Shown here in pieces: positions 11,505 through 31,441 of a DNA stretch of 31,458 nt. The stretch is from a virus, in the IMG/VR virus record IMGVR_UViG_3300025853_000385, positions 1-31,458 of that record, one strand, 5' to 3'. The first letter of the stretch is position 1. Each line of letters starts with the position of its first letter. The notes beneath the pieces are model-generated. The model did not search any database. It was not told where the DNA came from and saw only the letters and a list, made by a program, of their open reading frames with translations. Made by a program: the position numbers and the translations under genes.

Positions 11505-11574
11505 AACGCTCTGTATCGAGCTAGGAGCTAGGTTGCAGAAGAATCAGTACCTTTCGGCTAGGTACATACCTAAC
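11505..11574 (+). other. Structured 3' untranslated region of the late operon
   Basis: This 70-base stretch has no gene but several inverted repeats. GTACC (11548-11552) faces GGTAC (11560-11565 region), TAGGTA-CA-TACCTA is a perfect two-armed palindrome just before 11574, and GAGCTAG is repeated in tandem near 11518-11531. The CTAG tetranucleotide occurs four times between here and the terminator. The arms overlap, so alternative folds are possible. It could stabilise the late mRNA 3' end or belong to a short terminator-derived RNA. No tRNA fold was seen. Confidence 0.4.
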
Positions 11575-11619
11575 GGGCTAGAGAAGGCTACTCACCGCTC
11601 TTCTCTGGCCCTTTTTTTT
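11575..11619 (+). terminator. Strong intrinsic terminator of the late operon
   Basis: The arms GGGCTAGAGAAG (11575-11586) and CTTCTCTGGCCC (11600-11611) pair over 12 base pairs, with one U-G wobble on the + strand RNA, and are followed directly by eight T residues (11612-11619). On the - strand the wobble becomes a C-A mismatch and there is no T run, so it stops only + strand transcription, just before the convergent - strand genes. Confidence 0.92.
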
Positions 11620-11625
11620 ACAGAA

Positions 11626-11958
11626 TTAAAAAGAAATTTGTTGTGATTCTGGTTTTCCATCAATTAAAATCCAAGTATTAGTCTTTTTATTAAAACCTAA
11701 TAGTTTTACCCCCAAGCTTACTTGATTGTCTCTTAATTTTGGAAAGCACATCCGTTTTCCATCTGAACTTATAGAAACAGTTTTAACATCTATTTTTAAT
11801 ATTTCATTTGTTTCTAAATTTAAAGCTATTATATCAATAGGGCCAGTGGAACAATCATTACGAAAGACTTCATATCCCTGCTCAAGGAGCCAGCATACAG
11901 CTTTAAGCTCTAATAAATCTCCAACTTTCTTCGCTGCTAGTTTTGTATTATTTTCCAT
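11626..11958 (-). CDS. PD-(D/E)XK nuclease-like protein
   Basis: This 110-residue protein has the core layout of small PD-(D/E)XK nucleases. Glu17 lies in the first helix (GDLLELKAVCWLLEQGYEVF), Asp42 in GPIDIIAL, and the D-x-K pair Asp57/Lys59 in KIDVKT. It resembles single-domain Holliday-junction resolvase or restriction-like folds such as those grouped with phage and intron endonucleases. The substrate is unknown; resolving replication or packaging intermediates is plausible because terminase small subunit lies directly upstream. It is the last gene of the - strand block. Confidence 0.75.
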   Translation of the reverse strand: MENNTKLAAKKVGDLLELKAVCWLLEQGYEVFRNDCSTGPIDIIALNLETNEILKIDVKTVSISSDGKRMCFPKLRDNQVSLGVKLLGFNKKTNTWILIDGKPESQQISF

Positions 11959-13030: not shown

Positions 13031-13719
13031 TATTCTGACTCCTTTACATTTTTCATTTTAATTATACGTGGATACTGATCAATGCGATAGCCTTGCGTTT
13101 GATAGGTCTTTGGATTTTCTGTTACCATTGTATCAGCAAACATATAGATAGTCAAGTGTTTAAAGTTTCTGCTTTTCTCAGCCAGCATCTGAATCCAATC
13201 CTCTGGAGAGAAGATTGAGATATGAGCATTGCGTCCATCTGGTAGCGTCTTCACTGCTTCAAAGCAAGCTATGTTTAGAAAGACCATCTTCTTTGCATAA
13301 GAAAATATTTCATCTACCACCCAAGACAAGTCTTCCTCTGCTACATGTTCAAGAACATCTGTACAAATTACTGCATCTTTTTTGTGGATAGGAAGTTTAT
13401 TATACTTCTCGTAGCCGGGATCAAAAAGTTCATGCTCGTCAAGGCTCCAGTACTCAGGAAGAGGGCAGTCAATTTCGTTAGTTAATGTATGGTAGTCTTC
13501 GCTATAAAGAATACCCTTGCCACAACCATAATCAAGAATAGATTTACACTTATGCTGTTCAAGATAAGCCTTGATTATGTCAACAAACTTTAAAAGGCTA
13601 CGACCATTAAACATACCTGCTGCCTGATCATGCTTTTGTTCATACATCTTAATAAGATTACCATAATCATCAGAAGGATTATGCCTACTATTTGTGTTCT
13701 CTACATTAATATTAGTCAT
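13030..13719 (-). CDS. Class I SAM-dependent methyltransferase
   Basis: This 229-residue protein has the SAM-binding motif I at 61-69 (ILDYGCGKG) and a post-motif CTDVLEHV at 119-126, typical of small-molecule or sugar methyltransferases of the Methyltransf_11/23 type. Its acceptor cannot be read from sequence. It lies directly downstream of, and overlaps by eight bases, a glycosyltransferase/MTase-like/DUF115 protein, so a sugar or nucleotide-sugar-linked acceptor is likely. AAAGGA precedes the ATG by eight bases. A DNA methyltransferase role is unlikely because no target-recognition or NPPY/PC motif is seen. Confidence 0.8.
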   Translation of the reverse strand: MTNINVENTNSRHNPSDDYGNLIKMYEQKHDQAAGMFNGRSLLKFVDIIKAYLEQHKCKSILDYGCGKGILYSEDYHTLTNEIDCPLPEYWSLDEHELFDPGYEKYNKLPIHKKDAVICTDVLEHVAEEDLSWVVDEIFSYAKKMVFLNIACFEAVKTLPDGRNAHISIFSPEDWIQMLAEKSRNFKHLTIYMFADTMVTENPKTYQTQGYRIDQYPRIIKMKNVKESE

Positions 13720-16066
13720 CGTAATATCCTTTAAACTGTGGCCTTGTTTCCTGTTCTACTTTGATGTCCCACAAGTCTGCAACCATAGTGTCTTTACCAT
13801 GATAGCAGAGTACACCCTCAAGACCGGGATCATTAAATACTTTCTCACAGTCTTGCGCCATAGCAAGCAACTCTCCTGTAGTCCAGTATGTTTTTTCCTT
13901 TACATTAACTTGTATATACTTTGGCTTAGGAACTTCTCCGCCTTCCAGATCACCAGTAGTCTCAGTCTTTTCTTCGTCAGTTGGCTCGTCTCTACAACAA
14001 TCAAAACCAAAGAGATGTATATCTCTGAAGCCCATAGTGTGCAGCATACCAATGCCACGCATAGCAGCACAGGTACCACCAGTAATAAGCGTAGCTCCCT
14101 GTGGAATACCAAGCTCATTGCTTAGTTTAACCTGCTGGTTTTCAATAGCCTTACCCTGCTCATCCTCTTCACGTAGAGAATCAGTGAAGGCATGCCATCC
14201 CCAGATTTTTGCATTACGTTCTATGAGATGCTCTGTAACAGATGGGTCTGTCATAGACGCAACAAAGAAGTTCATGTCAGGATCAAAGTCTTTGAACAAG
14301 TCTTTGCGTGTGATGTTGTGTGTGCTTTTACCAGTGATAGGTCTGGGATCAAGAACAATACAACCCCATGGAGTTATGCCATTCTTAATTAGACCCGGCA
14401 ATGCATGTTTAACTGTAAGAACTTTACAGTCAGGATTAAATGCAAGAAACTCTTCAAGCTTCGCATAGTCCAAATACGGACCAGCAGATACGATAGCCGC
14501 TCGGCCTCTGTGTGCAGGATGCTTCCGTACCCACCTGTCTTTATCAATGTGCTGAAGGTTTCTTTTAATATTACTTCGAATATATTCCTTCGGCACAGAG
14601 TCTCTGGGATGTACAACAATAGGAACCTGTTTCAGTTCCGCTGGAATATCCTCTAGCTTTTCGTCATGAAGGAAGACAACAAGGTGTGTGCGACCACCAC
14701 CAAGTACTCTGTCATCTGAAGGCAGAACATACTTACGCACTGTAGACTTTTCATCGAACGATGTCCAGCCATCTTCTGTTGTCTTCTCTTCATTAATCTT
14801 TTTGGTAGCGATAGAATCAAAAAGATTTTTCATACCCTGATATTTTTCTTCAGGGATTTTGTCCTCGTCGTCCTTCGTAAAGAAGTGATCACCCATGACA
14901 ACGGGAACATTCTTTAGAATATTATATTCGTGTTGGACAGTTTCGATACTGTTTCCACTGCCTATCAAAGCAAAGTCTACTTCATCAATATAGATAGAGT
15001 TAAGAGTATCTCTTACATTACCTTTATGTAACTCATAGGTAAACTCTTTACCCTTTTCTTTCTTTATGTATTGGGTGAACTCATCAAACCTTTTCGCAAC
15101 AGCACTCTTTGTGTTGTGAGGCTTGGCATTAAACTCTTCCTTATCCGTCTCTACTGTTGCATCTTCGAACAGATCGTAGCCAATGTAATGAACTGAATCT
15201 GTTCTATCAAATGCAGCAAGCGCCATCTCAATAGCACGGCCACCATTCCACGTCCCTGTTTCCAGAATAGTACTAGGCTTATAAAAACGAATAGTGTCGG
15301 CAAGCTGTTTATACCTACCGGGAAGAATGTCTGGAGTGGTTTCTGTTTCTGAAAGTTCAATCACTCGTTTACCAGAGCTATCCCTGACATTCATAGAACT
15401 TTTATCATTGATGTTTACTACTAGATTTTCTATACCAGTAAACTCATGGACGTTCATACCATGTGCTGTATAGATAGTAACAAGTCTGCTAAGAATAAAA
15501 GCAGCGGTCCATTCACGATAATTTGTAAACTCGCCTGACATGTAAGAGCCACGCCAATCGCCCATGATATCTACAGCAGTCTGACGTTTCAGATTAAACG
15601 CCATGATGTACGATGTCTCAGGCGTATAGATAAAGTCTACGTTATAGACGGGATCAGGGAAGTAATGATCAAGAGTGGAAGACCTAATGTCTTTAACTGT
15701 AGCGCACATGGGGTCAACCCAGATCAGCCAACCACCCTCATTGTTGAACGCACACTCAGTAATAGCGAAAACATCTGGCCCCGATGACAGCGCATCCAGA
15801 AGTTCTGTGTACTGCACCATACCATCTTCAGTACCATCGTGGGTGGGGTTCTCTTCTACAAACGTAACATACTCAGGAACGTCGTTAAGATTGTGGTAGT
15901 GAATGTTCTTCGCTTTGGGCAGAGAATAGTTACTAATATCTAGATTATAATAGTAACAGTGAAACTCTATATTAGGTTGCCAGTTTTCTTTGAACTCATT
16001 CAGAAGTTTGAAGCCATTTTTCTTGAGCTTCTTCTCGTCAAAGCATGTTACAATTTTATATGTCAT
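13712..16066 (-). CDS. Three-part glycosyltransferase / methyltransferase-like / DUF115 protein
   Basis: I chose the ATG at 16066 (784 residues), which overlaps the upstream glycosyltransferase stop by 11 bases. An open frame continues 43 codons further inside that gene and is probably not translated. Residues 1-230 resemble a GT-A glycosyltransferase (MTYKIVTCFDEKKLKKNGFK start; WLIWVDPMC at 113-121 in the DxD region). Residues about 250-400 carry ILETGTWNGG (267-276) as in Rossmann methyltransferase or cephalosporin-hydroxylase-like proteins. Residues about 515-784 carry GRAAIVSAGPYLD (521-533) and HLFGFDCC (684-691), the pattern of DUF115/MptE-like proteins, a domain also found in flagellin Maf glycosyltransferases. 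The likely role is making or attaching a modified sugar on virion or host surface. Domain calls are from motif appearance only. Confidence 0.65.
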   Translation of the reverse strand: MTYKIVTCFDEKKLKKNGFKLLNEFKENWQPNIEFHCYYYNLDISNYSLPKAKNIHYHNLNDVPEYVTFVEENPTHDGTEDGMVQYTELLDALSSGPDVFAITECAFNNEGGWLIWVDPMCATVKDIRSSTLDHYFPDPVYNVDFIYTPETSYIMAFNLKRQTAVDIMGDWRGSYMSGEFTNYREWTAAFILSRLVTIYTAHGMNVHEFTGIENLVVNINDKSSMNVRDSSGKRVIELSETETTPDILPGRYKQLADTIRFYKPSTILETGTWNGGRAIEMALAAFDRTDSVHYIGYDLFEDATVETDKEEFNAKPHNTKSAVAKRFDEFTQYIKKEKGKEFTYELHKGNVRDTLNSIYIDEVDFALIGSGNSIETVQHEYNILKNVPVVMGDHFFTKDDEDKIPEEKYQGMKNLFDSIATKKINEEKTTEDGWTSFDEKSTVRKYVLPSDDRVLGGGRTHLVVFLHDEKLEDIPAELKQVPIVVHPRDSVPKEYIRSNIKRNLQHIDKDRWVRKHPAHRGRAAIVSAGPYLDYAKLEEFLAFNPDCKVLTVKHALPGLIKNGITPWGCIVLDPRPITGKSTHNITRKDLFKDFDPDMNFFVASMTDPSVTEHLIERNAKIWGWHAFTDSLREEDEQGKAIENQQVKLSNELGIPQGATLITGGTCAAMRGIGMLHTMGFRDIHLFGFDCCRDEPTDEEKTETTGDLEGGEVPKPKYIQVNVKEKTYWTTGELLAMAQDCEKVFNDPGLEGVLCYHGKDTMVADLWDIKVEQETRPQFKGYYDD

Positions 16067-16826
16067 AGGGTTTGATAATTCCTTTTCCGGCAAGGTAGGT
16101 GTAGTCTCCATTCCACTCGGAAGCGTATCTTCCGTCAATGTCTCTTGCACATTTCCACTGTCTAAACCACGGCCCTCCTGTAGTGAAGTGAACATTCTTT
16201 GCTTCTACTTCCGCTGGAGAATGACCATCAAGCCAGTTCCACTCCTGATGCATACTGCCAATGTCGCCCTCTTTATCTGGAAGCCACTGAAAACCATGAA
16301 GCCAAGAACCTGTCTGGGTGTTTACCTCCAGAGGCGTTAGTCGTTTGTTAAGCTCGTGACCGCAGTTCCAAAGAATAAGGCTTGACCAGTTCTTGCGCCG
16401 ATAAGTTTCCTGCTTTCGTCCATCCATCTTATATTCTTCGGTAGGTTCATATTGATGCTTAACGCAGTATAATGGATAGTAATCCATGTTGTATTCTTCA
16501 AACAATTCATTGATGTCTGTGCGAAGATACATGTCGCAATCCATATACAAAGCCCATCCCTGATACATGTTCAAGGCAGGGACAAGAAAACGTGTGAAGC
16601 TAAAGTCTGTAGAGAACGGTTTGCCATCTATGTCATCAATCATCTGCCCATCTTTAACGGTGTGCTTACGATTATACAGACCCATACGTTCTACAACATC
16701 TTTACGAATTGGTTTAATAGTTACGTTGTCAACTGCAATACGTTCAATAGTAAACTTCAATACTTCATAAGCTACTTCTTCTCTGGGATCGTAGCCAATA
16801 TAAACTGTGTTGGGTGACTTTCTCAT
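16056..16826 (-). CDS. Glycosyltransferase with DxD motif (GT-A fold, GT8-like)
   Basis: This 256-residue protein has an N-terminal strand-turn (TVYIGYDPREEVAYEVLKFT), which matches nucleotide-sugar transferases that begin with a 'YIGYD' strand. The metal/sugar-nucleotide motif DCD is at 96-98 within WALYMDCDMYL, with an acceptor-side WNCG and a late His in VHFTTGGPWF. The start at 16826 is chosen because AGGAG lies just upstream; an in-frame ATG 16 codons earlier falls in the preceding hairpin and is unlikely. It is cotranscribed with the three-part protein and the methyltransferase downstream. Confidence 0.82.
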   Translation of the reverse strand: MRKSPNTVYIGYDPREEVAYEVLKFTIERIAVDNVTIKPIRKDVVERMGLYNRKHTVKDGQMIDDIDGKPFSTDFSFTRFLVPALNMYQGWALYMDCDMYLRTDINELFEEYNMDYYPLYCVKHQYEPTEEYKMDGRKQETYRRKNWSSLILWNCGHELNKRLTPLEVNTQTGSWLHGFQWLPDKEGDIGSMHQEWNWLDGHSPAEVEAKNVHFTTGGPWFRQWKCARDIDGRYASEWNGDYTYLAGKGIIKPYDI

Positions 16827-16880: not shown

Positions 16881-17324
16881 TTACAGGCTGTAAATCTTTT
16901 CTTTCTTGTCTTCAGGTACTACCTTTTGAAGCTTGATGGTAAGCAAACCATCTTTAAAAGAAACATCATCTACAACCACGTCTTCGGCAAGAGTAAAAGA
17001 CTTTGAGAAGGGTCGCTTCGCTATGCCTTTATGTACGATCTTTTCATCGTCTTCTTCTTCGACTTTCTTGCCGCTGATAGTTAGCTTGCTGTGTTCTGTT
17101 TTTACTTCCAACTCCTCTTTGGTGAAACCAGCAGTGGCTAACTCAATCGTATATTTCCCATCACCTTCTTCTACTAGATTATGCGGTGGGTAGGCATTAT
17201 AAACATAACCACCTACTTCATTCTTCATCTTTAGCATATCTCTAAAGAGTTGCTCATGCCCCACAGTCCAAGAACAGAACTTGGAAAAGAAGGGATCATC
17301 GCTCGCCGTCCTATATGCGTTCAT
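16881..17324 (-). CDS. hsp20: Small heat shock protein, Hsp20/IbpA type
   Basis: This 147-residue ATP-independent chaperone holds unfolding proteins. The N-terminal arm ends in YPPHNLVEEGDGKYTIELA, close to the YPPYN entry of IbpA. The alpha-crystallin domain covers about 50-138, with the hallmark GIAKRPFSKSFTLAEDVVVD and DGLLTIKLQK. The C-terminal tail holds an I-x-L-like anchor (KIYSL). It has its own leader with a perfect-consensus promoter and an AAGGAG site eight bases before ATG, so high expression is expected. Hsp20 genes are known in marine phages, where they may support virion assembly or host proteostasis. Confidence 0.93.
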   Translation of the reverse strand: MNAYRTASDDPFFSKFCSWTVGHEQLFRDMLKMKNEVGGYVYNAYPPHNLVEEGDGKYTIELATAGFTKEELEVKTEHSKLTISGKKVEEEDDEKIVHKGIAKRPFSKSFTLAEDVVVDDVSFKDGLLTIKLQKVVPEDKKEKIYSL

Positions 17325-17382
17325 ATCATTTCTCCTTATAGCAAGTTGATATAACGTGACCCATTATTGGCATCACACATAT

Positions 17383-21041: not shown

Positions 21042-21085
21042 AATAAAAAGAGGGAGGAAGCTGACTCAGAAACTCCCTCCCTCTT
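21041..21085 (-). terminator. Terminator/attenuator between SSB and exonuclease
   Basis: On the - strand AAGAGGGAGG and CCTCCCTCTT (plus-strand positions 21076-21085 and 21048-21057) form a perfect 10-bp stem with an 18-base loop, followed by TTTTATT directly before the exonuclease ATG. The stem and short T run fit a partial intrinsic terminator, which would let SSB be made in excess over the downstream nucleases and RNR. Confidence 0.75.
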
Positions 21086-23769: not shown

Positions 23770-24043
23770 CTTCGTCCATCCAATCTTCATGTGGGAAGTG
23801 TTTCGCTTCAAATCCAATGCCTACTTCACTTTCATTTAGTTTAGTAAACAAATCAATTATATCTTTTCCTCCTAGTTGAGAATAGAACATTTTCTGTATT
23901 TTAGAAAGAGCATGTTCTTCTGATATTCCTGTACCCATAACTGTACCTACCAGTTTGATTGTTAGAACATAAGACTCTTCTTCAAATCCGTAGTCTTTAT
24001 TATGTCTATTCCAAAGTGGCTCTAGATTATCTTGTTTATTCAT
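23762..24043 (-). CDS. Hypothetical protein, 93 aa
   Basis: This small acidic protein begins MNKQDNLEPLWNRHNKDYGF, has a hydrophobic beta strand (YVLTIKLVGTVMGTG), then a helix starting EEHALSKIQKMF, and ends HFPHEDWMDEDV. It overlaps both neighbours by eight bases (primase-helicase upstream, nuclease-like gene downstream), which supports it as part of the replication operon. The strand-then-amphipathic-helix layout might form a small sensor or dimer domain, but no family is recognised. Confidence 0.65.
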   Translation of the reverse strand: MNKQDNLEPLWNRHNKDYGFEEESYVLTIKLVGTVMGTGISEEHALSKIQKMFYSQLGGKDIIDLFTKLNESEVGIGFEAKHFPHEDWMDEDV

Positions 24044-25661
24044 CTTCGTCCTCCACGAATGGGTTATCTACCTGCGTCATTCTACCAGTGTTGGAGTCGT
24101 AATGCAAGTAGCAAGCAATGCCCGTCTCACCAGTATACCTGTTCTTGAGAATGCGAATCGTAGTAGTGTTTGCCTCTACCTCATCCTCTGCCTGTTGGTT
24201 ACGCTCCAGAGCAAGCACAGCATCAGACAGATGTGCAATGGATGCAGACCCACGTAGATGTGACAGAGTAATCTCACGACCATCCTCATGCCCACGATCA
24301 CCGGCGGGGCGACGTAGGTGTGAGACAAGAAGCAAACCAATCTGCGTCTCCTCAACCAGAGAGCGTAGCTTGGTCATGAGAATATCAATAGACTTACGCT
24401 CGTCGCCGTTGTCTTCCTGACCGGACACAAGAATAGAAAGATGGTCAAGAATAATCCACTTGGTGTTGAGAGCCTTTGCCATGTACCGTACACGGTTGAG
24501 AATCTCATCGTTGTCCATGCTTCCGAAGTGATCGAACACATAGAACCTGCCGGTGCCGAGCGTCTTTTCTTGCCACTCATCAAGCTGTTCTTGTGTGTAC
24601 TGTTCACGAATCTCCTTGATGTACAGACGTGCATTAGCTTCCACACTCATGAGATTGAACGCAGTCTGCTTAGTGTTCTCCTCCATTGCAAGGACGCCAA
24701 TGTTCTCCTCAGTATTGTGCATCAGGTGATACATTAGCTCACGCATGATACTGGACTTGCCCATACCAGCGCCAGAAGTAAACGTGATAAGCTCTCCGGT
24801 ACGCATACCATACGTCTTCTCGTTCAGCTTTGACCACGGGTAAGGACAGGTCTGATTGTGCGTCTCTTCGTACAAGCTGCGACCAAGATCAGCAAGGTTG
24901 ATAATACCTGCTGGTGTGTAGGTCTGTGCGTTCCACCATGTCTGCACGAACTTCTCACGCTGACCGACCTTCAGATACTCGTTAGCATCCTTCAGTTCGA
25001 GGCTCATGATCTTACACTTGTTAGGCTCGAACAGCTTTGCCACAGCCTGCTGTGCATCTTTACCTTGCTGGTCGTTGTCAAAGCACAGAACAATCGTATC
25101 AAACTTATTGAGATAGTCCAGCGCCTGACGGCAGTTCTTCAGCGCAGACTGTGCGCCATTCTTGATAGATACGACCGGCCACTTCGACCCAAGAAGCTGA
25201 TACGCACTCATCGCATCAAGCTCGCCCTCACATACGGTAATGAACTTACCTGCCTGACCAAAGATGTTCTGACCAAACAGTCCTGCATCTGACAAGTTGC
25301 CCTCCGACCAGAACTGCTTGTCGCTGGTGCGGCGGAACTTAGTTCCGATGTGGTTGCTGTTCTTGTCGTAATACTTGTACATGTGTTCGGTGACCATGTT
25401 GCCGTCCTTGACAACCGACACACCATAACGCTTACAGGTATCTAAAGTAATCTTACGATCAGGAATATCAGAAACAATAAAGTTCTTAGCTTGCTGGTTC
25501 ATGTTAACAATCTTTTTGGGTGCAGGTGTGTGTTGCATTTGGTTTCCATTCTTGTAGGGTTTCGCTTCATCGCAGCTAAAACATTTTGTACCCCAATCGT
25601 AGTACGCTAGTGCGTCGGATGATCCGCAGTCGGGGCAGGGTTGGTGCGTTTTGTTTTCCAT
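24036..25661 (-). CDS. Bifunctional primase-helicase (T7 gp4-like)
   Basis: This 541-residue replication protein makes primers and unwinds DNA. In order: a CHC2-type zinc finger with Cys9, Cys12, Cys27 and Cys30; a TOPRIM primase domain with Glu145 (CEGELDA) and DND at 195-197; then a RecA-like DnaB/gp4 helicase with Walker A GAGMGKSS (297-304), Asp406 in IILDHLSIL (Walker B) and a late SHLRRPAGDRGHEDG/HLRGSASIAHLSD segment. The ATG at 25661 is chosen for the GGAG seven bases upstream; an in-frame TTG at 25673 overlaps that site. It lies just after the 25675-25726 hairpin and heads the core replication genes. Confidence 0.95.
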   Translation of the reverse strand: MENKTHQPCPDCGSSDALAYYDWGTKCFSCDEAKPYKNGNQMQHTPAPKKIVNMNQQAKNFIVSDIPDRKITLDTCKRYGVSVVKDGNMVTEHMYKYYDKNSNHIGTKFRRTSDKQFWSEGNLSDAGLFGQNIFGQAGKFITVCEGELDAMSAYQLLGSKWPVVSIKNGAQSALKNCRQALDYLNKFDTIVLCFDNDQQGKDAQQAVAKLFEPNKCKIMSLELKDANEYLKVGQREKFVQTWWNAQTYTPAGIINLADLGRSLYEETHNQTCPYPWSKLNEKTYGMRTGELITFTSGAGMGKSSIMRELMYHLMHNTEENIGVLAMEENTKQTAFNLMSVEANARLYIKEIREQYTQEQLDEWQEKTLGTGRFYVFDHFGSMDNDEILNRVRYMAKALNTKWIILDHLSILVSGQEDNGDERKSIDILMTKLRSLVEETQIGLLLVSHLRRPAGDRGHEDGREITLSHLRGSASIAHLSDAVLALERNQQAEDEVEANTTTIRILKNRYTGETGIACYLHYDSNTGRMTQVDNPFVEDEDE

Positions 25662-25674
25662 AAACTTCTCCAAA

Positions 25675-25726
25675 TTAATTGAGCCTTAGTAGTTTCGTAG
25701 AAACTTCACTACTAAGACTCAATTAA
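25675..25726 (-). ncRNA. Bulged stem-loop ahead of primase-helicase (element H2)
   Basis: As - strand RNA: a 16-bp outer stem (TTAATTGAGTCTTAGT with ACTAAGGCTCAATTAA, one U-G wobble), a five-base 5' bulge AGTGA, a 6-bp upper stem AGTTTC/GAAACT and a three-base loop TAC. It begins two bases after the preceding stop and ends just before the GGAG of the primase-helicase. The same architecture with different pairing bases occurs at 31389-31441. On the + strand the wobble would be a C-A mismatch, so the structure is made for the - strand transcript. It is possibly an RNase III-type processing site or mRNA stabiliser. Confidence 0.75.
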
Positions 25727-25728
25727 GT

Positions 25729-25941
25729 TTACCATTTACCTTTGCTATTTTGATACAGTTCCAAAGATATTTCTCTTCGCTCTGCTGCTAACTCCTTCTC
25801 CAGTGATATCAGCGTTTCAATCTGGTCAACTCTTTCAAGCTTACGCCATGCTGCTTTGAAAGATGTTTGCATTTTACCTCGTGTCTTTGGTTTATATACT
25901 TCAATAAGAACTTCCATCTCTTTATCCTTTTTGGATTTCAT
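25729..25941 (-). CDS. Hypothetical basic helical protein, 70 aa
   Basis: The ATG at 25941 is chosen for an AGGAG six bases ahead; a longer in-frame start at 26052 lies inside the neighbouring 52-residue gene. The protein is rich in Lys/Glu/Arg and almost wholly helical (MKSKKDKEMEVLIEVYKPKT start; a later LEKELAAERREISLEL coiled-coil-like helix). It could bind nucleic acid or a host protein, but no family was recognised. It is the last gene before hairpin H2. Confidence 0.65.
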   Translation of the reverse strand: MKSKKDKEMEVLIEVYKPKTRGKMQTSFKAAWRKLERVDQIETLISLEKELAAERREISLELYQNSKGKW

Positions 25942-26080
25942 ATACTCCTCTTGCAGATTTGTGGGTAAGATGTTGAGTGAGGTTGTCTCTGTTTCGAAGC
26001 TCTTCCTCGGCTTCTTTTTTCGTGCGAAAATTCTTGACAACCACATCACCAAACTCCTTCTTCAATATTAGCTTCCACAT
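25922..26080 (-). CDS. Hypothetical small protein, 52 aa
   Basis: It begins MWKLILKKEFGDVVVKNFRT, continues with KKEAEEELRNR and ends RGVYEIQKG, a compact beta-hairpin plus helix layout common in phage early proteins. The ATG at 26080 has GGAG six bases upstream; another ATG four codons earlier is possible. It overlaps ThyX by 13 bases and the next gene by 20 bases. Function unknown, but the folded-looking sequence and tight coupling support a real gene. Confidence 0.65.
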   Translation of the reverse strand: MWKLILKKEFGDVVVKNFRTKKEAEEELRNRDNLTQHLTHKSARGVYEIQKG

Positions 26081-30990: not shown

Positions 30991-31139
30991 TAGTTCATCT
31001 CCAGCCATTCTGATTCAGTTCTACGTGCAGCTTCTTTGTAGGTTTCAGGATCGCCTTTCGGCCACCCATCCAACTCCAGATACTCCACCCACAAGTCAAA
31101 GATATTTTCTTTGAGCATTTCGTTTTCATGGTTACTCAT
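30990..31139 (-). CDS. Hypothetical protein, 49 aa
   Basis: This gene starts MSNHENEMLKENIFDLWVEY, then LELDGWPKGDPETYKEAARR, and ends TESEWLEMN. It is acidic and helical, with a GWPKGDP turn. It overlaps the preceding gene by eight bases and the next by one (TAATG). The coupling at both ends and filling of an otherwise empty gap support it. Confidence 0.65.
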   Translation of the reverse strand: MSNHENEMLKENIFDLWVEYLELDGWPKGDPETYKEAARRTESEWLEMN

Positions 31140-31353
31140 TTATCTTTACCTCTGCTTCGGTTTCGATCCATACTTTAGCACCACAACTCAGTGGCTTGTC
31201 AGGACTATATACTATTTTACATGGTCCGTCAACATAAACTTCGTGAGCATAGTTATTATCTTTGTATGTCTTCACGGTTATCACTGGCTCACGTTCGCCA
31301 CTCTTGGCGTTACTCTTGATAACATGCTGATTTATGTGGATAACTTTCTTCAT
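31132..31353 (-). CDS. Hypothetical protein, first gene after leader hairpin, 73 aa
   Basis: The ATG at 31353 is chosen: TTGGAG lies about eight bases upstream, and an in-frame TTG at 31365 falls on that site. The protein (MKKVIHINQHVIKSNAKSGE onward) looks beta-rich, with EPVITVKTYKDNN, a VYVDGPCKIVYSP segment and a final VWIETEAEVKINE. It is the first gene after hairpin H1 and so may be the most strongly expressed of the small early genes. No family was recognised. Confidence 0.65.
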   Translation of the reverse strand: MKKVIHINQHVIKSNAKSGEREPVITVKTYKDNNYAHEVYVDGPCKIVYSPDKPLSCGAKVWIETEAEVKINE

Positions 31354-31388: not shown

Positions 31389-31441
31389 TTAATAGGCGTT
31401 ATGTAGTATCGTTAGATACTCTACTACATAACACCTATTAA
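31389..31441 (-). ncRNA. Bulged stem-loop in the leader of the small-gene operon (element H1)
   Basis: As - strand RNA: a 16-bp outer stem (TTAATAGGTGTTATGT with ACATAACGCCTATTAA, one U-G wobble), a five-base 5' bulge AGTAG, a 6-bp upper stem AGTATC/GATACT and a four-base loop TAAC. It lies about 20 bases ahead of the ribosome site of the first gene. It has the same design as 25675-25726 with compensating base changes in both stems. Flanking sequence 31354-31388 is AT-rich leader; no promoter was recognised between the hairpin and the window edge. Confidence 0.75.

Follow-up and report, generated by a model that had tools for sequence, protein, structure and literature searches.

What kind of signal is an imperfect hairpin that occurs twice, with different stems and the same architecture, on one strand of an uncultured virus genome? 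The window, by which we mean the whole 31,458-nt stretch analysed (IMG/VR record IMGVR_UViG_3300025853_000385), is a virus record with a T7-type replication module (primase-helicase, DNA polymerase, gp2.5-like SSB and Cas4-type exonuclease), and it also encodes ribonucleotide reductase and thymidylate synthase. The first-pass annotation had placed hairpins of like architecture at 25675-25726 and 31389-31441, and both were found at those coordinates, on the minus strand. Read on that strand, copy 1 consists of the 5′ arm TTAATTGAGTCTTAGT (25726-25711), an AGTGA bulge or purine strand (25710-25706), an upper stem of AGTTTC (25705-25700) with GAAACT (25696-25691) around the loop TAC (25699-25697), and the 3′ arm ACTAAGGCTCAATTAA (25690-25675), with a U.G wobble at 25717/25684. 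Copy 2 likewise comprises the 5′ arm TTAATAGGTGTTATGT (31441-31426), AGTAG (31425-31421), an upper stem of AGTATC (31420-31415) with GATACT (31410-31405) around the loop TAAC (31414-31411), and the 3′ arm ACATAACGCCTATTAA (31404-31389), with its U.G wobble at 31433/31397. Copy 1 lies at the primase junction: the stop codon of a 105-aa gene (25729-26046, minus strand) ends 2 nt before it, and the T7-type DNA primase-helicase gene (24036-25661, minus strand; phrog_239, E 5e-181) follows directly, with GGAG at 25671-25668 and its ATG at 25661, 13 nt after the hairpin. Copy 2 precedes a 73-aa gene (31132-31353, minus strand; phrog_8676). Contig G006, which is fuller, shows a 222-aa gene whose end lies 1 nt ahead of copy 2's hairpin; this contig places the window in the early-operon map, with two more copies upstream of the window's end.

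Both hairpins stand out from the surrounding sequence. Within the window, no other inverted repeat with such spacing exceeds them in length, and the core pattern has an expected count of 0.00 in window shuffles. Minus-strand RNA is predicted to fold at -27.0 (copy 1) and -29.0 kcal/mol (copy 2), with z-scores of -7.4 and -8.7 and none of 200 shuffles as good; plus-strand RNA folds more weakly (-20.1 and -23.8 kcal/mol). A covariance model trained without copy 1 recovered it at 51 bits (E = 7e-10), and copy 2, which is in the training set, scored 71 bits. With filters off, a covariance model search detected no third copy in the window, and no mismatched-stem copy, of the kind that the first-pass annotation had named as counter-evidence, was seen on the opposite strand.

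The window holds other features of interest. Its best Rfam match is to the ROSE_3 RNA thermometer, in the 5′ UTR (17319-17379, minus strand) of an Hsp20 gene (16881-17324, minus strand; PF00011, E 9e-18). At 30.7 bits, this match falls short of the gathering score, 43; UUGCU faces AGGA in this UTR and a sigma-70-like promoter (TTGACA...TATAAT) lies upstream, making a phage heat-shock RNA thermometer possible. A strong hairpin followed by a U tract at 21048-21085 (minus strand), between the gp2.5-like SSB and Cas4-type exonuclease genes, is terminator- or attenuator-like, and the strongest fold on both strands, at about 11551-11635 between two convergent operons, is probably a bidirectional terminator. 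An 827-aa protein (13712-16195, minus strand) carries an MptE-like domain (PF01973, E 2e-14), with a weak methyltransferase match and no PHROG match.

Relatives of the window extend the pair to a large family. A protein search with the window primase returned 63 viral loci, among which close relatives keep the hairpin and two relatives at 75-76% carry one with quite different sequence and the same architecture. The core AGTRGAGTATCTTRCGATACT has exact matches in 63 stretches of IMG/VR, further contigs were added by two variant cores, and the outer arms pair in all 73 distinct hairpins parsed. One further pattern match, at L162, is attributed to chance, being without phage-group markers and without a model match. 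The 50-base element occurs on about 100 uncultured marine phage contigs (contig names counted across the primase search and the three core searches), with from 1 to about 11 copies per record by the covariance model. Model matches are always stronger on one strand of each record, raw match counts including echoes of these hairpins on the antisense strand. Of 82 hairpin loci, 79 carry marker genes of a single phage group, and the primases compared (n = 31) are at least 56% identical. The first-pass annotation was right about the two copies, but understated the scope of a family that reaches about ten copies in a genome.

Outside this group, the core was absent from 84,980 prokaryotic species genomes. 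Among cultured phages, blastn with hairpin queries gave nothing but two chance partial matches and megablast of the window and contig G003 gave no match, while a descriptor scan of regions of HTVC115P, Aeromonas phage 1233, HTVC111P and DSL-LC04 detected no such hairpin. None of the Rfam covariance models matched the hairpin and no description of it was found in the openly accessible literature; in the sources searched, it is apparently an undescribed RNA signal.

The alignment of 67 copies establishes how the stem evolves. Both sides have changed in 16 of 16 outer-stem pairs, with 88.9% of outer-stem cells pairing (68.4% in shuffles) and a covariation score of 0.55, as against 0.17 in shuffles and at most 0.17 when the arms are slid. 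Pairing drops to chance level beyond the 16 lower pairs; the modal 3′ arm is 21-22 nt long, and about 8 pairs below the apex many copies have a mismatch or wobble, often A.G. The hairpin is a conserved, covarying RNA structure, and the proposal that stems differ yet stay paired, made from two copies and open to checking by a covariance search of relatives, holds at every outer-stem pair in the relatives so found. Non-redundant hairpins (n = 67) contain 23 G-U and 8 A-C pairs (p = 0.011), and outer-stem positions 7-9 alone contain 29 G-U and 2 A-C pairs before redundancy removal. Since G-U outnumbers A-C, the sense-strand RNA is favoured as the functional form, in agreement with the strand assignment of the first-pass annotation; with a modest bias and copies that are only partly independent, this counts as support, not proof. 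At positions 1-6 below the bulge, almost no G-U occurs among hundreds of covarying pairs across all copies, which is unusual for an RNA helix, and DNA-level correction of one arm by the other may contribute.

Placement is as regular as structure. Copies are on the sense strand, in the gap between a gene's stop codon and the ribosome-binding site that follows. Typically they start within 0-10 nt of the preceding stop codon or overlap it, and a start codon that has a Shine-Dalgarno match comes 10-40 nt after their end. No covariance match falls inside an ORF; the flanking-gene table comes from a simple ORF caller, and some opposite-strand neighbours in it are probably spurious ORFs. In the five genomes mapped, all copies belong to the early/replication operon divergent from the terminase gene, where they are densest at the 5′ end and occur last at the primase or DNA-polymerase/SSB region; the late operons of these genomes contain none. 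Single copies are dispensable, because two phages with 99% identical flanks (L146:10518-10581 and L091:4519-4527) differ by the clean presence or absence of one hairpin, with TTAATTAA and the stop codon left behind in the hairpin-less phage. A good sigma-70 -10 box lies 19-25 nt before two hairpins (L071:783 and L136:646). These two are the only ones of 107 that directly follow a good sigma-70 match. A promoter role was rejected, given that there is no general enrichment of such matches upstream.

While stem sequences vary freely, the apex is nearly invariant, and it can be folded in two ways. The minimum-energy fold of the window copies continues the lower stem to 19-20 bp, topped by an internal loop of purines and a mini-hairpin of 2 bp. 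In this class of fold, the lower stem is lengthened by AGTA/TACT, G.A and A.G are opposed in tandem, and GTA/TAC closes a TCT loop. The bulged fold is predicted to be about 4-5 kcal/mol weaker. Accordingly, the five-base bulge described in the first-pass annotation can form and has evolutionary support, but is not the predicted ground state. Upper-stem pairs of the bulged model change together (ATC/GAT, TTC/GAA, TAC/GTA, AC/GT and AAC/GTT), and in a few variants the upper stem is broken while GA/GA is retained and the inner pairs covary (GT/AC, TT/AA and AC/GT). Of 51 apical variants, three of which are parsing artefacts, 42 fit the bulge, 40 the tandem G.A fold and 34 both. A need to form both folds, or a binding protein, could explain the near-invariance, and the apex is probably fixed by one or the other. 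It is unlikely, if conceivable, that the hairpin is a new kind of bistable element, in which a protein-recognized apex switching between the bulged and tandem G.A folds ties together the whole early regulon.

The reading tentatively preferred is that of an intercistronic mRNA processing or stabilizing hairpin acted on by a host nuclease. The element would act in cis in the polycistronic early/replication transcript, forming a double-stranded rod of about 21-22 bp with an AT-rich base (P1), often one mismatch, a further helix (P2) and the sequence-conserved apex. RNase III, or another host nuclease specific for double strands, would cut in or next to it; the upstream message would thereby gain a protected 3′ end, and the gene downstream a new 5′ end, as at T7 sites R0.3-R1.3. 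Both the cutting and the choice of enzyme are inferred. The mapped genomes encode neither a T7-type RNA polymerase (the search detected that of T7 and that of Aeromonas phage 1233, used as positive controls) nor an RNase III, so host enzymes would be used. RNase III needs no near-invariant apex, and something more specific may therefore bind there. The near-absence of G-U below the bulge and the dispensability of single copies count against the processing reading.

The bulged RNase III hairpins of T7 early mRNAs, put forward as a parallel in the first-pass annotation, do agree in layout, early-operon placement and a shared multi-copy core. At the T7 sites (R0.3, R0.5, R1, R1.1 and R1.3), as in this family, several irregular hairpins lie between early genes, the first copy is in the leader, and a shared core (AAGGTC.../...GGCCTT in T7) sits above varying lower stems. 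About two helical turns of double-stranded RNA are also available, with 16 lower pairs, or 21-22 including the upper stem. In T7 sites, however, the 3′ side carries an asymmetric internal loop beneath the upper stem, whereas the present family has an unbroken 3′ arm and its irregularity, a bulge or tandem G.A, is 5′ or apical, often with one mid-stem mismatch; the sequence differs, and copies number up to about ten, with none in the mapped late operons. Lacking the 3′ internal loop, and with cleavage a prediction only, the hairpin is not filed as a T7-type site. The broader proposal of a phage RNA motif is borne out, as are its action on the sense strand and the covariation of its stems in relatives.

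Several other readings account for parts of these data. The near-invariant apex above a free stem, the multi-copy, regulon-like distribution and the sites just before start codons would suit a protein-binding operator, in which a phage or host RNA-binding protein reads the apex (AGUAG-AGUAUC-UUAC-GAUACU or the tandem G.A form of it) and controls in concert how the neighbouring early genes are translated or degraded; the 34 variants that keep both folds are what a switch would need. The MS2/R17 and T4 gp43 operators are similarly short hairpins with a conserved apex and bulge near start codons, but they include or abut the ribosome-binding site, whereas here the Shine-Dalgarno sequence usually lies beyond the hairpin. 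No candidate binding protein was identified, and an operator is possible, though on the unlikely side. RNA-based antitermination, in which the hairpins would modify the host RNA polymerase that transcribes the early operon, as HK022 put or lambda boxB do, would fit the lack of a T7-type polymerase in the mapped phages, the density of hairpins at the early-operon start and the two copies that follow a good -10 box. HK022 put and lambda nut are also early-operon RNA hairpins of phages using host RNA polymerase; they occur, however, as one element per operon near the promoter, and put is a double hairpin, whereas this family has up to about ten single, intercistronic hairpins and no general promoter enrichment upstream, leaving antitermination improbable.

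A DNA-level or selfish origin, as a cruciform, a single-strand hairpin or a spreading repeat whose pairing is kept by arm-to-arm correction, would explain why arms are more alike within contigs (identity 0.55) than between them (0.43), the clean presence or absence leaving TTAATTAA, and the scarcity of G-U in the first six pairs. The bias of G-U over A-C and the sense orientation between stop and start codons speak against it, and the copy loss looks like a deletion between palindromic arms; overall, it is judged rather improbable. Bacterial REP and IS200-type palindromes are likewise dispersed, imperfect and found after stop codons, but the present core is absent from the prokaryotic species genomes and its orientation is fixed. 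A mobile element is disfavoured by the lack of a Y1 transposase in 12 phage records (controls detected). Promoters for an N4-type virion polymerase are not favoured either, because pairing is constrained in the outer stems and the ORF calls in the two longest maps reach at most 1332-1544 aa, the N4-type enzyme being about 3500 aa. Strong hairpins after stop codons could be intrinsic terminators, but no U tract follows (T makes up a mean fraction of 0.29 of the 8 nt that follow, and 5 or more T occur there at only 5 of 103 hairpins), and this role is very improbable.

The finding is real and larger than first noted, its function being inferred. Few phages are known to carry systematically repeated RNA elements of conserved structure within their operons, and this one is common to a whole uncultured marine phage group with primases down to 56% identity. 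The family supplies an RNA-family model, and the ambiguity between bulge and tandem G.A is directly checkable by probing. It also poses the question of whether a shared core marks RNA cutting or protein binding, and offers a handle on how this group of marine phages shapes its early transcripts.
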